Source of the DNA: a virus
Virus record (IMG/VR): IMGVR_UViG_3300045790_000685
Coordinates: 1 to 28,145 of that record
Strand: one strand, 5' to 3'
Length of the DNA: 28,145 nucleotides
Position 1 is the stretch's first letter. Every line of letters starts with the position of its first letter. The notes beneath the pieces were generated by a model. That model did no database searches. It saw only the letters and a program-made list of their open reading frames with translations, and was not told the DNA's origin. The translations under genes were made by a program, and so were the position numbers. This document shows positions 1,153 to 6,069 of this stretch, piece after piece.

Positions 1153-3657
1153 CTAGTTACTTAGTGTGTGATCTGTTAACTTCTTGCCGTTTCTTCTGAT
1201 AGCTTCGGTTTCTGTTAATAGCTTGTCTATGTTAGTATTTAGTAGGGTTAGCTGATCTGAGCTACCTGTTCCGGCGCCGCCACCACTAGGCATTGTTGTA
1301 TTACCTGCGTTACTGCCTTTATAGAACGGTATCCAACTGTTGTCTTTAGTTAGCTCGTCGTTCATTTTTTCAAAAGCATTACCAAGGCGCTCCATTTGAT
1401 CAGCATATAGTTTTAAATTACTAACGTCTAAATCTTTACCAAACTTTGACAACCCTTCTAATGCAGTTCCGCTTAATTTTACATTCTCAATAGCTGTTGC
1501 ATCAATTTTTTCAAACTGGTTAATACCCTCAACTAGTGTAGTGAAAGGTGAACTAGAACCAAAGAAGCTAGTAATAGATTCTAGTACTCCGCCCTTAGTA
1601 AGACTTATTAGTGCAGGTCCTAGTAAGCCTAATGATGTAGCAATTTCTGCAAAGTTTGCGGCTCCCTTCATGTTAGCCATTAGTTCAACACCTGCGGCAA
1701 TCTTTTCAACACCGTCTCCGGCTAAGTCGATGCCTTTTCCTGCAAGTGTTATTGCCGCACCAGTACCAATAAGCATTGCAGTAAATACTGCCGCACCAAT
1801 TGCTACTGGGCCATTTGCAAACATTCTAAACACTGTAGTAAGTGCTTTAAATCCAAGAAACACAGCACCAGTAGCTAGTATTGCTCCTAATGCACCTAGC
1901 CCACCTAAAAGAGCTGGTCCTGCAAGCAAGCCTAGGAAACTACTTAATGCACCGCCTTCGCGTTCGCCTGTTGCTGCCATTTGACCTGCAGGACCTGCCA
2001 TTTCCATTTTTTTCTTACCAAATACAACATCTTTAGCTATGTTCATTAGACCTGACATTGCTGTTGATATGTGAGGAGCTATTAACTCGCCGAGTTTACT
2101 TAATCCGTCACCTAGGTATTTTCCTATGTCTTCCATCAAGGTACCTTTTTGGAAGGATTCCATCAAGCCTGTTATTGCTGTTCCAAAGGACGTAGCGGCT
2201 GATTTAATTTTACTAATTCCACCGCCCTCATCCATTAACTCTTGAAACTTAGTAGTTATGTTGCTTAATACTAGGGTAACTGAAGCAAAAATACCACTAT
2301 CAATTAGTGCATTTTTCATTTTGTTTCTTGTGTCTGTTATTGTTTGCTCAAAGTCTAATACAGTTTTTGCTCGCCCTTCGTCAATTGCTTTTTGTTTTTT
2401 TGCTTGCTCAATCTGTGCTGCCGAAACTGATTCTACTAAATTACCAAGGCCAAGCACACTGAGCGTTGTTAACGCAACTTGGTCGCCCATAGCCGCACGT
2501 ACTGCTAACGAATCTTTTTCTGCTGTTGACATTTTTAATACAGTCTGTCTAGCTTTTTCAATTTCTGCGGTCAGCATATCCGCCGCGCCAGGAACACCGT
2601 CACCTAATGCTTTAGTTGCTGCCGCAATTCCAGGGTTTAATAAAGAAAGTGCCACTGCCGATTCACTATATGGTACTCCGCCCATAGCAATCATTTCTTT
2701 AACAGCTTCACCTAGTTCAGCATCACGTGCAGATAACATAGTAACTGTACTTGTTACTGCTAGTCTAGCTGTTTCGTCTAATCCAGCTAGTACACCCTTT
2801 AATCGCTTATCATTAGATACCTCATTCATTGCTCCCGATATTTCATCACGTTGCTTACCAGTTGCTTTTGCAAGTTTGTCAACTTCTTTAATATATGCTT
2901 GAGCAGAGGCTAATGTCTGTTTACTAGATAACCGTTCACCTCGACCAAGTCGCTGTTGCTGGGTTACATAGTCAGCTGTATACTCACTAACTTCTTCCAT
3001 AGTCATGCCCAGTTGGAGGAATAATTTAGAGTTTTTACTTACACCCTGCAGTAATCCAGTAAATGCTTTTGCTCCACCACCAGCTGAGCTGCCAAGTTTT
3101 GCTAACATCTCGGCGTTCGATGAAATCACTCCCGAATACTGTTCCATAGTTAAACTTGTTTTAGTTGCCATATAAGATGCTTCGTACAAGTTTTCACCAA
3201 AGTCGATACCTACTTTTGACAAGTCTCTAAACGTATCAATTTGATTGTCTATTGTTGAAACAAGTAGTTGCCCTATTCCGCCTATTAGTCCTCCAACAAT
3301 TGGAATAGATTCTAACGCACCAGTAACATGACTACTAAAGTCACTTATTCTGTCGCCACCTGTTAATAGTTCGCCTGTTAGACCTTTAAATGCATTTGCA
3401 ATTTGGCCTATGCCGCGGATATAAACGTTACCTACATTGTCTGCGGCCTCTTCTAACTCTCCTAATTCTTTAGTAGTTTTGCCAGACTGTTTAGCTAGTG
3501 CCGCTAATTGTTTTTTAGATTCTTCACCACCGCCTTTGCTGCCGCCATCGCCTTTGGACCCCATCGCCTTGAGCAATTTAAGTAAGGTTGCTTCAGTTGC
3601 CGCGTTTTCTAACGTGACATCTTCTTGTCCAATTACACCTGTTACCTTTTCAGCCAT
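1153..3657 (-). CDS. Probable tail tape-measure protein (gp29 role)
   Basis: An 834-residue protein with tape-measure features: long helical Ala/Gly/Leu-rich segments, few Cys residues, a Gly/Lys/Ser-rich N-terminal linker (residues 33-50), a hydrophobic patch at about 117-135 and a long hydrophobic block at about 572-645. Such proteins set tail length and are thought to pass into the host envelope during DNA entry. T4 gp29 is about 590 residues, so this one is considerably longer. The ATG at 3657 has AAGGAA about 10 bp upstream. A perfect TATAAATA late box on the minus strand (3724-3717) lies upstream. The neighbouring divergent gp26-like gene with a frameshift supports the call, because tail chaperones usually sit beside the tape measure. 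I cannot match it to gp29 motif by motif; another large helical structural protein remains possible. Confidence 0.66.
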   Translation of the reverse strand: MAEKVTGVIGQEDVTLENAATEATLLKLLKAMGSKGDGGSKGGGEESKKQLAALAKQSGKTTKELGELEEAADNVGNVYIRGIGQIANAFKGLTGELLTGGDRISDFSSHVTGALESIPIVGGLIGGIGQLLVSTIDNQIDTFRDLSKVGIDFGENLYEASYMATKTSLTMEQYSGVISSNAEMLAKLGSSAGGGAKAFTGLLQGVSKNSKLFLQLGMTMEEVSEYTADYVTQQQRLGRGERLSSKQTLASAQAYIKEVDKLAKATGKQRDEISGAMNEVSNDKRLKGVLAGLDETARLAVTSTVTMLSARDAELGEAVKEMIAMGGVPYSESAVALSLLNPGIAAATKALGDGVPGAADMLTAEIEKARQTVLKMSTAEKDSLAVRAAMGDQVALTTLSVLGLGNLVESVSAAQIEQAKKQKAIDEGRAKTVLDFEQTITDTRNKMKNALIDSGIFASVTLVLSNITTKFQELMDEGGGISKIKSAATSFGTAITGLMESFQKGTLMEDIGKYLGDGLSKLGELIAPHISTAMSGLMNIAKDVVFGKKKMEMAGPAGQMAATGEREGGALSSFLGLLAGPALLGGLGALGAILATGAVFLGFKALTTVFRMFANGPVAIGAAVFTAMLIGTGAAITLAGKGIDLAGDGVEKIAAGVELMANMKGAANFAEIATSLGLLGPALISLTKGGVLESITSFFGSSSPFTTLVEGINQFEKIDATAIENVKLSGTALEGLSKFGKDLDVSNLKLYADQMERLGNAFEKMNDELTKDNSWIPFYKGSNAGNTTMPSGGGAGTGSSDQLTLLNTNIDKLLTETEAIRRNGKKLTDHTLSN

Positions 3658-3735: not shown

Positions 3736-4629
3736 ATGACAGATAATAACTCACCAGGAATGGTTGAACTAACTGCGCCAGGTGCTAATCCTTTACAGAA
3801 ATTCTTTAGACAACCTAAATTATATATTACGTTGCCTAGTAAAGGTCGCTGGTATCCAGCAGGGTCTTTAGAAACTACAGAAAATGGCGAGTTAGCAGTA
3901 TTTGCCATGACTGCTAAAGACGAACTAACTTTAAAAACACCAGATGCACTTATTAACGGAGCCGCAACTGTTGAAATTATACAAAGTTGTGTGCCTAGCA
4001 TTTTAAATGCATGGGTAATGCCTAGTATTGATGTTGATGCATTACTTATTGCTATTAGAATTGCAACATATGGTCCAACAATGGACGTAGAAGTAACTGC
4101 ACCAAACACAGAAGAAGCAAACAACTTTCAAATGGACTTACGCCAAGTGCTAGAAACAGTTGGTGTTGAGGAGTTTGTTGAAGATGTACCAACAACAACT
4201 CCAGGACTGCAAGTAAAAATTAGACCTGTGACATACAAAGAGTATACTTCTGCCGCACTACAAACATTTGAAGAAGAAAGAATGTTTAGGATTGTCAACG
4301 ACGGTGACTTAGAACAAGAACGCAAGTTAGAACTGTTTGGCGAAACGTTTACTAAAATTAGAGATTTAACTGTTGGAATGATTTCTAACAGCATTGTATC
4401 AATTACAGTTGACGATGTTGAAGTTACTAATAGGGTTCACATAACTGATTTTATTGATAACGCTGATAAAAGTGTATTTTCAGATATAACAAAGCATATT
4501 GAAACAGAAAAAACTAAACATGCTGTAAAGCCATTAAAGGTATTTGCAACTGAAGAACAACTTGAACTTGGTGCGCCTAAGGAGTTTGAAGTTCCGATTG
4601 TATTCGATCAATCAACTTTTTTCGCCTAA
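3736..4629 (+). CDS. 26: gp26-like baseplate/tail assembly protein (zero-frame product of a frameshifted gene)
   Basis: A 297-residue soluble protein resembling the T4 gp26 / T4_baseplate family found in T4-like phages. Visible hallmarks are LPSKGRWYPAG (about 33-43), MTAKDELTLKTPDALING (58-75), an SCVPSI turn (84-89) and a helix IDVDALLIAIRIATYG just after. The product would act in baseplate hub or tail assembly, probably as a chaperone for the tape-measure protein. The ATG is preceded by CGGAGA 5 bp upstream and by a perfect late promoter. The frame ends at TAA 4627-4629, but a U UUU UUC slippery site lies just before it (4617-4623) and the -1 frame stays open to 4853. In T4, genes 26 and 51 are adjacent, which fits a fused 26-51 product here. 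The gp26 assignment is moderately sure, the frameshift more so. Confidence 0.72.
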   Translation: MTDNNSPGMVELTAPGANPLQKFFRQPKLYITLPSKGRWYPAGSLETTENGELAVFAMTAKDELTLKTPDALINGAATVEIIQSCVPSILNAWVMPSIDVDALLIAIRIATYGPTMDVEVTAPNTEEANNFQMDLRQVLETVGVEEFVEDVPTTTPGLQVKIRPVTYKEYTSAALQTFEEERMFRIVNDGDLEQERKLELFGETFTKIRDLTVGMISNSIVSITVDDVEVTNRVHITDFIDNADKSVFSDITKHIETEKTKHAVKPLKVFATEEQLELGAPKEFEVPIVFDQSTFFA

Positions 4630-4853
4630 GGATCGTTAACTGGCCAGTTGATCAAATCCTACAAGAAGTTTCAGACTTACAAGGCCAAGCAAAGCAGTTT
4701 CGACATTCTATATTAGAAATAATGTGGCACATGCGAGGAAGTGTTAGTATGGATGAAGCGTTTATGTTATCTAATGAAGATAGAGAACTTATTAGTGACA
4801 TTGTTAAAAGCAATTACGAAAACACCAAAAAGTCCGGACTACCTTTAGTTTAA
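3736..4853 (+). CDS. Predicted -1 frameshift fusion product (gp26-gp51-like long tail chaperone)
   Basis: Slipping one base back at 4617-4623 gives 296 zero-frame codons followed by 76 from the -1 frame, about 372 residues. The extension starts RLRIVNWPVDQILQEV and includes HMRGSVSMDEAFMLS, DRELISDIV and ends KKSGLPLV. The -1 frame is open from just after a TGA at 4587-4589 to TAA 4851-4853 and has no start codon until ATG 4722, yet it reads as good helical protein well before that ATG, which argues for entry by frameshift. This is the arrangement of the lambda G/GT and related tail assembly chaperones: an abundant short form and a rarer long form whose tail binds the tape-measure protein. 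The 3' end overlaps the convergent gene ending at 4850 by 4 bp. An alternative is a separate 43-residue protein from ATG 4722, but its ribosome site is poor. Confidence 0.7.
4617..4653 (+). promoter_or_regulatory. Programmed -1 frameshift signal
   Basis: Bases 4617-4623 are T TTT TTC in the zero frame, a textbook X XXY YYZ heptamer, two codons before the stop. A possible stimulatory fold follows 7 bases later: GATC 4631-4634 with GATC 4650-4653, and AACT 4638-4641 with AGTT 4646-4649 around a GGCC loop, with a 3-base bulge. The heptamer is directly seen. The stem is modest and may not be needed. Confidence 0.72.
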
Positions 4854-5455
4854 CGTACTGCTGGACCAATTGGAGCTGCCTTAGTTCCAGTAAGCATTGC
4901 TTTAACTGCTTCGCCTACTCCAGCTTTATTAATTTCTTTAGCTATATTAGTTACTCGCTTAGTAGACAATCCTGGACTAACATCCTTAGGTGCAATAGCC
5001 ATAGTAGCATTATTTTTCCATTGAGCACCTTGCCAAATATAAGTTTGGCCATCGTCGCCATCTAACAACTGTCCTGCACCAGGCGCTACATCAATTCCTG
5101 GATTAGGAACTTTCTTTGGATCAAAATCTGTAGTAGTAGTTGCACTCTTTTCAACGCCGGCTTTCTTTTCAGCTTGTGCTATAAGTGTTTGAAACTTTTG
5201 TAACTGCCCAACGTCTGCGAATATAGCTTGCAATCCTTTAGCAAATGGTGCTAGTTGCTTTGCTAAGTTTGCAGGTAATGCTTCTCCCTTTTCAAGTTTT
5301 TCAAGACCTTTGCCCATTTGACTTGCTGAGCCTTTGCCTCCTAACTTTGATGCCATACGTTTAGCACCTTGAGAAACTTTAGCTTTTATATCTTTGATAC
5401 TAGGTGCTTCATTGATAGTTTCTTTTTCTAAACTTGTAATTTGAGTAACTTGCAT
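4850..5455 (-). CDS. Candidate internal head protein with prohead-protease site (A)
   Basis: A 201-residue basic protein rich in Ala, Lys and Gly, of no family I can name. It begins MQVTQITSLEKETINEAPS: I14-N15-E16 followed by A17 fits the T4 gp21 prohead-protease consensus (Leu/Ile-x-Glu, cut before Ala/Ser/Gly). In T4 a short N-terminal peptide ending at such a site targets internal proteins to the head core and is then removed. A TYIWQGAQWKN segment (about 135-148) resembles a short motif in other marine phage structural proteins, recalled rather than checked. The ATG at 5455 overlaps the upstream stop as TAATG, so translation is coupled to the neighbour, which has the same N-terminal pattern. 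The two are probably paralogous in role, not closely in sequence. Function is inferred from the N-terminus only. Confidence 0.6.
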   Translation of the reverse strand: MQVTQITSLEKETINEAPSIKDIKAKVSQGAKRMASKLGGKGSASQMGKGLEKLEKGEALPANLAKQLAPFAKGLQAIFADVGQLQKFQTLIAQAEKKAGVEKSATTTTDFDPKKVPNPGIDVAPGAGQLLDGDDGQTYIWQGAQWKNNATMAIAPKDVSPGLSTKRVTNIAKEINKAGVGEAVKAMLTGTKAAPIGPAVR

Positions 5456-6069
5456 TATAACATTCCCGCTAATTCTTTTCTTTGCTTAACTGATAAACTA
5501 TCAATAGTTGCTTGTAACTTCGGATCAATTTTTGCTGGCTTACCTACTGGAGGTGCTTTTGTTCCTGCCGCATTTCCTGTAGCCGGTGCTTTCGCGCCAG
5601 GCGTTTTTTTAGCAGTTCCTTTTTTACCAGTTTTAGCTTGCATTTTATCTAATACACTGTTACCAACTGTTGGTTCTATTTTAGCTTTTCCGGCTGGTTG
5701 TTTATCTGGAGCCGCAGCCGCATTACCGCCTGTAAGTTTATTCTTTGCGGCTTGTTTCAAAACATCCATAACTGTTTTCTTATCAAGCGTGCCTGCCGGT
5801 AATGTTATTCCACCCGCAGATAACTTATTTTGTTTCATAAATGCGCCAAAGTCTTGGTCAGTCATGTTTTTATCATTCTTGCCGTTAATGCCTTGCCACT
5901 TCTTGAGAGTCTTATATAATGCGTTAGCTTCTTTACCCATCTCAGCATTACCAGCTATACGTTCAGCACCAGGTAGTTTACCCACAGCACCTTTAATCGC
6001 ATTACCAACACCACTAGTAGGTGCTTCGTTAATTATTTTATCTTCGCTTATAATATCATAAACATTCAT
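5455..6069 (-). CDS. Candidate internal head protein with prohead-protease site (B)
   Basis: A 204-residue, strongly basic protein without a recognised domain. It starts MNVYDIISEDKIINEAPTS, with I13-N14-E15 before A16 as a gp21-type cleavage site and a second weaker site at I7-S8-E9. After a small helical region (about 45-115) come low-complexity Ala/Pro/Lys/Gly repeats (about 115-180), then a short helix KQRKELAGML at the end. This composition would suit DNA binding inside the capsid or injection with the DNA, as for T4 internal proteins. The ATG at 6069 has AAGGA 7 bp upstream. Weak late-type boxes lie at 6106-6113 and 6098-6105. It is the first gene of a coupled pair. A non-capsid role cannot be excluded. 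Confidence 0.6.
   Translation of the reverse strand: MNVYDIISEDKIINEAPTSGVGNAIKGAVGKLPGAERIAGNAEMGKEANALYKTLKKWQGINGKNDKNMTDQDFGAFMKQNKLSAGGITLPAGTLDKKTVMDVLKQAAKNKLTGGNAAAAPDKQPAGKAKIEPTVGNSVLDKMQAKTGKKGTAKKTPGAKAPATGNAAGTKAPPVGKPAKIDPKLQATIDSLSVKQRKELAGML

Follow-up and report, generated by a model that had tools for sequence, protein, structure and literature searches.

The gp26-like gene and its -1 frame in the window

The window (the whole stretch of viral DNA analyzed here, 28,145 nucleotides of IMG/VR record IMGVR_UViG_3300045790_000685) contains an open reading frame at positions 3736 to 4629 that encodes a gp26-like protein of 297 amino acids. The protein matched the Pfam family PF12322 (T4_baseplate) with an E value of 2e-14 and a score of 54.2 bits, compared to a Pfam cutoff of 24.5, and the PHROG family phrog_150 (baseplate hub) with an E value of 2e-17. 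Read directly, the frame ends with ACT TTT TTC GCC TAA. The T TTT TTC at positions 4617 to 4623 is a canonical X XXY YYZ heptamer in the phase of the zero frame. The original prediction, made from the sequence of the window, had placed this heptamer two codons before the stop. Heptamer and phase stand, whereas the distance does not, since exactly one codon (GCC) separates the two. The -1 frame is free of stop codons from 4590 to 4853, and slippage would join 296 residues to a 76-residue extension (RLRIV...SGLPLV), yielding a product of 372 amino acids as had been proposed. The features of the locus are as follows.

1153..3657, minus strand: probable tape-measure/virion structural protein, 834 amino acids (phrog_14121, virion structural protein, E value of 2e-8)
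3736..4629, plus strand: gp26-like gene, putative short chaperone form (TAC-N), 297 amino acids (PF12322, phrog_150, AlphaFold model)
4617..4623, plus strand: slippery heptamer T TTT TTC (kept in each of 162 gp26-like loci)
4623..4853, plus strand: -1 extension, 76 residues and stop, open and conserved; with the upstream 296 residues it would form the 372-amino-acid long form (TAC-NC)
4627..4629, plus strand: TAA stop of the short form (direct reading)
4629..4660, plus strand: candidate downstream stimulatory hairpin, outer stem 4629-4633/4656-4660, inner stem 4635-4641/4646-4652

The heptamer by itself is uninformative, since the window has 12 copies of TTTTTTC compared to 11.6 expected by chance. 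The case is therefore carried by its phase, its position, the open frame, and conservation.

The gp26-like gene adjoins the probable tape-measure gene at 1153 to 3657, as had been noted originally by analogy with classical tail chaperones. The adjacency holds; the two genes, however, lie on opposite strands and are divergent, whereas classical G/GT genes directly precede the tape-measure gene and share its strand. The same divergent layout was found in RaK2, PA5oct, and 121Q, and the RaK2 gene at this place is annotated as similar to tape measure protein. The product of 1153 to 3657 is likely the tape-measure protein. On the other side of the gp26-like gene, the stop of the extension (4850-4853) overlaps the stop of a convergent gene at 4850 to 5455, so that the extension exactly fills the room up to its neighbor. 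This convergent gene and the next one (5455-6069, minus strand) encode adjacent uncharacterized proteins of about 200 amino acids, each with an N-terminal 'INEAP' motif, which is perhaps a processing or packaging signal.

Conservation of the slip site, the extension, and the hairpin

The window protein and an alignment built from jumbo-phage homologues served as queries against viral contigs. Together with the window and the named jumbo phages Atu_ph07, Phosso, PA5oct, RaK2, 121Q, and JNE01, they formed a set of 162 gp26-like loci, which includes near-copies and represents 106 distinct extensions. Conservation of the heptamer and of the -1 frame among relatives had been put forward as a check on the original prediction, and both were kept throughout. 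T TTT TTC was located 3 to 8 codons upstream of the gp26 stop in 162/162 loci, and the -1 frame was open in every one of them, interrupted solely where the contig ended, in three loci. A cyanophage gp26 query retrieved 80 further loci of the cyanophage type. All of those with a readable gp26 end carried either T TTT TTC or T TTT TTA/G; in the latter, the second Phe is replaced by Leu, so that the heptamer is retained even though the amino acid changes. Slip site and -1 frame were also present in the Aeromonas phages CC2 and PX29, the KVP40-like phage R11Z, Ps15, Mosig, Vibrio phage 2.275.O, GAP32, XaC1, CBB, and P-SSM2, while Cr30 and RAS14 combine a T TTT TTT slip site with a preserved -1 frame. 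Other Phe-Phe pairs in the marine loci were encoded by T TTT TTC in 21 of 420 instances (5%).

The sole frame break among the cyanophage-type loci was observed in Synechococcus phage S-SCSM1 (L165:4687-4710). An apparent 11-nt insertion directly past its slip site places the extension in the +1 frame, reflecting either a sequencing error or an extension that started at its own ATG. A different departure was seen in the Ackermannviridae phages Kevin, SenM-2, and Kuja, in Vibrio phage K493, and in Cygsa01. The -1 extension after gp26 is retained in these phages, and no X XXY YYZ heptamer was found at their junctions; the stop is preceded just by NTT TTC/T, in some cases with a TAATG overlap. The heptamer-less loci are listed here and form one clade in the tree.

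L166:4660-4860, L254:2290-2486, L253:2210-2435, L252:2190-2390, and L168:4270-4482: heptamer-less loci of Ackermannviridae, K493, and Cygsa01

This clade may rely on a single T TTC slip or on reinitiation.

The mean heterozygosity of 99 equal-length marine extensions at the three codon positions of the -1 frame was 0.37, 0.22, and 0.54, which is the pattern of a protein. By this sequence signal, the marine extension is protein coding in the -1 frame. The first possible start after the Phe-Phe pair (ATG, GTG, or TTG) was scattered from codon 3 to codon 38 across the marine extensions, and there is thus no conserved start codon for the extension. The earliest ATG found for the -1 frame of the window is at 4722, 35 codons past the first F; the original prediction had seen no usable start near the beginning of the extension. 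Counted from FF, extensions of the marine group mostly have 78 residues with invariant FFR, W-x-MRG, and N residues, and they follow the pattern FFR...W.MRG...KENLETTKKSG.P.F. Neither Pfam nor PHROG contains a family that recognizes the marine extension; the PHROG search returned no consistent family, with two families each matching 1 of 67 members. The AlphaFold model of the extension (pLDDT of 90.5) is entirely helical. Its best matches among viral structures were uncharacterized small phage proteins (E value of 0.005; TM scores of 0.79/0.85 for the best), and comparison with the Moogle tape measure chaperone was not significant (E value of 0.74).

A weak hairpin at lambda G/GT-like spacing had likewise been proposed, and the analysis of the family bears this out. 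In the window, the hairpin at 4629 to 4660 starts 5 nt past the heptamer, a spacing within the 5 to 9 nt considered for such stimulators, and has a minimum free energy of -9.3 kcal/mol, which on its own is unremarkable (z of -0.94). Across 60 loci, the 55 nt past the heptamer folded better than synonymous shuffles, with a mean z of -2.7 and 77% of the loci below -1.5. A helix model of 11 bp (columns 13-23/34-44) was paired in 74.6% of cells compared to at most 48.5% when slid, and G-C is exchanged for A-U at two of its outer-stem pairs, in 6 and 10 sequences. Pairing was poor in the model's inner half (38 to 70% of cells), and one slid register outscored the model in covariation. No consensus structure was obtained by RNAalifold on 89 sequences or by a direct ViennaRNA run; support for the outer stem derives from hand-built helix counting and synonymous shuffles. 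Hairpins were strong in P-SSM2, PA5oct, and Atu_ph07 and weak in RaK2 and 121Q. We read these folding patterns as pointing to a real stimulator that is evolutionarily plastic.

Relation to T4 gp26 and gp51 and to known chaperones

PF12322 matched T4 gp26 (residues 1-206, E value of 9e-64) and T4 gp51 (residues 1-201, E value of 4e-52) alike. By contrast, phrog_634 ('baseplate hub assembly catalyst') covered only residues 147 to 246 of gp51 and the -1 extension of cyanophages. The fused frameshift product of the cyanophage type aligned end to end with T4 gp51 (E value of 4e-20), and its extension alone matched the gp51 C terminus (E value of 1e-9). T4 gp51 is thus a complete gp26 paralogue with a C-terminal extension. 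Since it aligns with the fusion, gp51 corresponds to the long form and gp26 to the short form. The original prediction that the frameshift links the T4 26/51 pair to the frameshifted chaperones is supported in its essence, except that gp51 is a full paralogue and not the extension alone. The same correspondence, together with the frameshifted cyanophage extension, explains why cyanophage gp51 was reported to be devoid of about 200 N-terminal residues, in a study in which a frameshift is not mentioned (Sullivan et al. 2010, PMC3037559). The cyanophage 'gp51' lies at the same place after gp26, in the -1 frame and behind T TTT TTC, while its extension sequence is unlike the marine one described here.

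Copy number follows the same division. Slip-site phage records with one PF12322 gene are those of Atu_ph07, Phosso, PA5oct, RaK2, 121Q, P-SSM2, and R11Z, whereas T4 and EC-F2, which do not have the frameshift arrangement, carry two PF12322 genes each. Marine contigs, which may be incomplete, each contained one gp26-like gene and one extension. In the PF12322 tree, which is rooted at the midpoint only, T4-type gp26 and gp51 form one group (98/98) that adjoins the frameshifting CC2, PX29, and R11Z (81/81); the T4 26/51 pair thus has frameshifting Straboviridae as its neighbors. T4 genes 51 and 26 are divergent. In Enterobacter phage EC-F2 (L266:1501-2794), a gp51-like long gene overlaps a short gp26-like gene in tandem, and this arrangement may represent an intermediate stage from the frameshifted gene to the divergent pair of T4. 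Tree, copy numbers, and the tandem and divergent layouts fit a loss of the frameshift by duplication. T4 appears to have swapped the frameshift for a gene duplication rather than to have split a fusion. We consider it somewhat more probable than not that the -1 frameshift is ancestral in the T4 superfamily and was lost once, in T4-type Straboviridae, by a duplication whose products are the tandem long-short genes of EC-F2-like phages and the divergent 51/26 genes of T4, so that the slip site and a second PF12322 copy are mutually exclusive across the superfamily.

The conserved tail-gene frameshift and the lambda gpG/gpGT pair were reportedly described by Xu, Hendrix, and Duda in 2004. The lambda slip site is GGGAAAG. 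Like lambda gpG/gpGT, the locus encodes a short protein with a predicted rarer -1 extension beside a probable tape-measure gene; unlike in lambda, the slip site is T TTT TTC, the N domain is larger, the tape-measure gene is on the opposite strand, and no fold match to solved structures was found.

The link between T4-like phages and frameshifted chaperones is credited to Vladimirov, Gautam, and Davidson 2022 (Virology 566:9) by two citing papers, and the core idea is therefore not new. As cited in PRFect, that study describes separate short and long chaperone genes in some T4-like phages (PMC10885494); as cited in the Adele paper, it describes poly-T slip sites in T4-like TAC-N genes (PMC12846349). 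Part of the ancestral-frameshift reading may already be contained in it. As far as we know, the present analysis adds two sets of lineages, marine and jumbo, as well as an extension that had gone unannotated, figures on conservation, and the contrast in copy number. The locus shares the PF12322 family and the two forms with the T4-like gp26/gp51 chaperones as these are represented in the citing papers. It differs from them in having one gene and a frameshift, in belonging to a marine lineage that groups with RaK2, PA5oct, and Atu_ph07, in being divergent from the tape-measure gene, and in carrying an extension that escapes PHROG and Pfam. Tail assembly chaperones of Pakpunavirus and Vandenendeviridae similarly have a -1 shift near the end of TAC-N, a poly-T motif, and a commonly unannotated extension; they belong to a different phage family, and their motif is GTTTTT instead of the T TTT TTC heptamer (PMC12846349).

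Proposed expression of two forms and alternative readings

The locus very probably codes for a lambda G/GT-type pair of tail assembly chaperones, with a short form and a rarer long form produced by -1 slippage at T TTT TTC. Comparative sequence supports the identity of the gene, its slip site, the coding -1 frame, the hairpin, and the single copy; we infer that ribosomes slip in cells and how efficiently they do so, that the products act as chaperones, and which protein is their client. Most ribosomes would terminate at 4627 and release the 297-amino-acid gp26-like protein. A minority would slip by -1 at the heptamer, assisted by the hairpin 5 nt downstream, and synthesize the 372-amino-acid product with its predicted helical C-terminal domain of 76 residues. 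By analogy with lambda G/GT and T4 gp26/gp51, the short form may coat or solubilize the tape-measure protein, presumably the product of 1153 to 3657 on the minus strand, and the rare long form may mediate its docking to the machinery of the tail tube or hub. T4 gp26 and gp51 are listed among the chaperones of hub assembly; the second of them is essential and missing from the particle (PMC3004832). Both proteins of this type are named 'tape measure protein assembly chaperone' in the record of Acinetobacter phage AM101.

Existing annotation suggests another reading, with the extension translated on its own as a stand-alone 'gp51', a small protein initiated at a dedicated start codon or by ribosomes that reinitiate past the gp26 stop. 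The extension is recorded as such in P-SSM2 (gp51, 2223-2396), 121Q (gp595), and Phosso (gp319), and an ATG in the extension frame overlaps the gp26 stop in some named phages. In RaK2 and PA5oct, the extension is not annotated, and in Atu_ph07 it is annotated only from an internal start. The scatter of possible starts argues against this reading, and initiation at 4722 in the window would lose about 33 residues of the extension, conserved ones among them. An own start leaves the invariant T TTT TTC and the -1 phase unexplained, and it is the full-length T4 gp51 that matches the fusion; we regard a separate protein as very unlikely. Single-base indels are common in metagenome assemblies, and heptamer and open frame could in principle be the remnant of a recent frameshift mutation, or of a sequencing error, in a normally in-frame fusion. 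This is extremely improbable given that more than 240 loci from separate assemblies and isolate genomes share this slip site and the -1 phase, that an in-frame fusion at the junction was found in none of the relatives examined, and that T4 gp51 is a separate paralogue.

A further alternative accepts the frameshifted chaperone and concerns the origin of its C-terminal domain. The marine extension may not be homologous to the gp51 C terminus but an independently acquired or replaced tape-measure-binding domain. Profiles of the marine and the cyanophage/T4-type extensions fail to match over their length (E value of 0.13, with local E values of 0.005 to 0.008 at best over about 30 residues), and about 16 residues more are present in the marine extension, which has no consistent PHROG match. 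On the other hand, position and frame are identical, both types share the pattern (S/T)LxExxxLxxxER, the RAS14 extension resembles both, and the fused marine profile aligned with the fused T4-like (cyanophage-type) profile across both domains with an E value of 2.7e-17. A replaced domain seems unlikely to us, though clearly less so than the readings above. The putative homology of the marine extension to the gp51 C terminus is based on its having the same position, frame, and slip site, together with the full-length match of the fused profiles.

On this comparative evidence, a marine bacterial virus almost certainly makes a short and a rarer long version of a tail-building helper protein. The slip site is kept in nearly all relatives examined, and T4 has two gene copies instead. 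A commonly missed protein becomes visible across an extensive set of marine and jumbo phages, and the locus offers a clean comparative test of how phages come to produce two chaperone forms by gene duplication in place of translational recoding.

The AlphaFold model of the gp26-like protein (pLDDT of 86) matched predicted T4-like baseplate hub assembly proteins with E values down to 9e-24. PDB sequence and fold searches yielded nothing useful; no hit to the model fell below an E value of 0.5, and no solved tail chaperone was matched. We therefore claim the mechanism of lambda G but not homology to lambda G or HK97 gp13. Among matches of the predicted fold in BFVD, uncharacterized proteins of 500 to 550 amino acids from the large phages RSF1, RP12, Special G, and PS1 were found with TM scores of about 0.4 to 0.5, and from these model comparisons, it is possible that they represent a longer chaperone.
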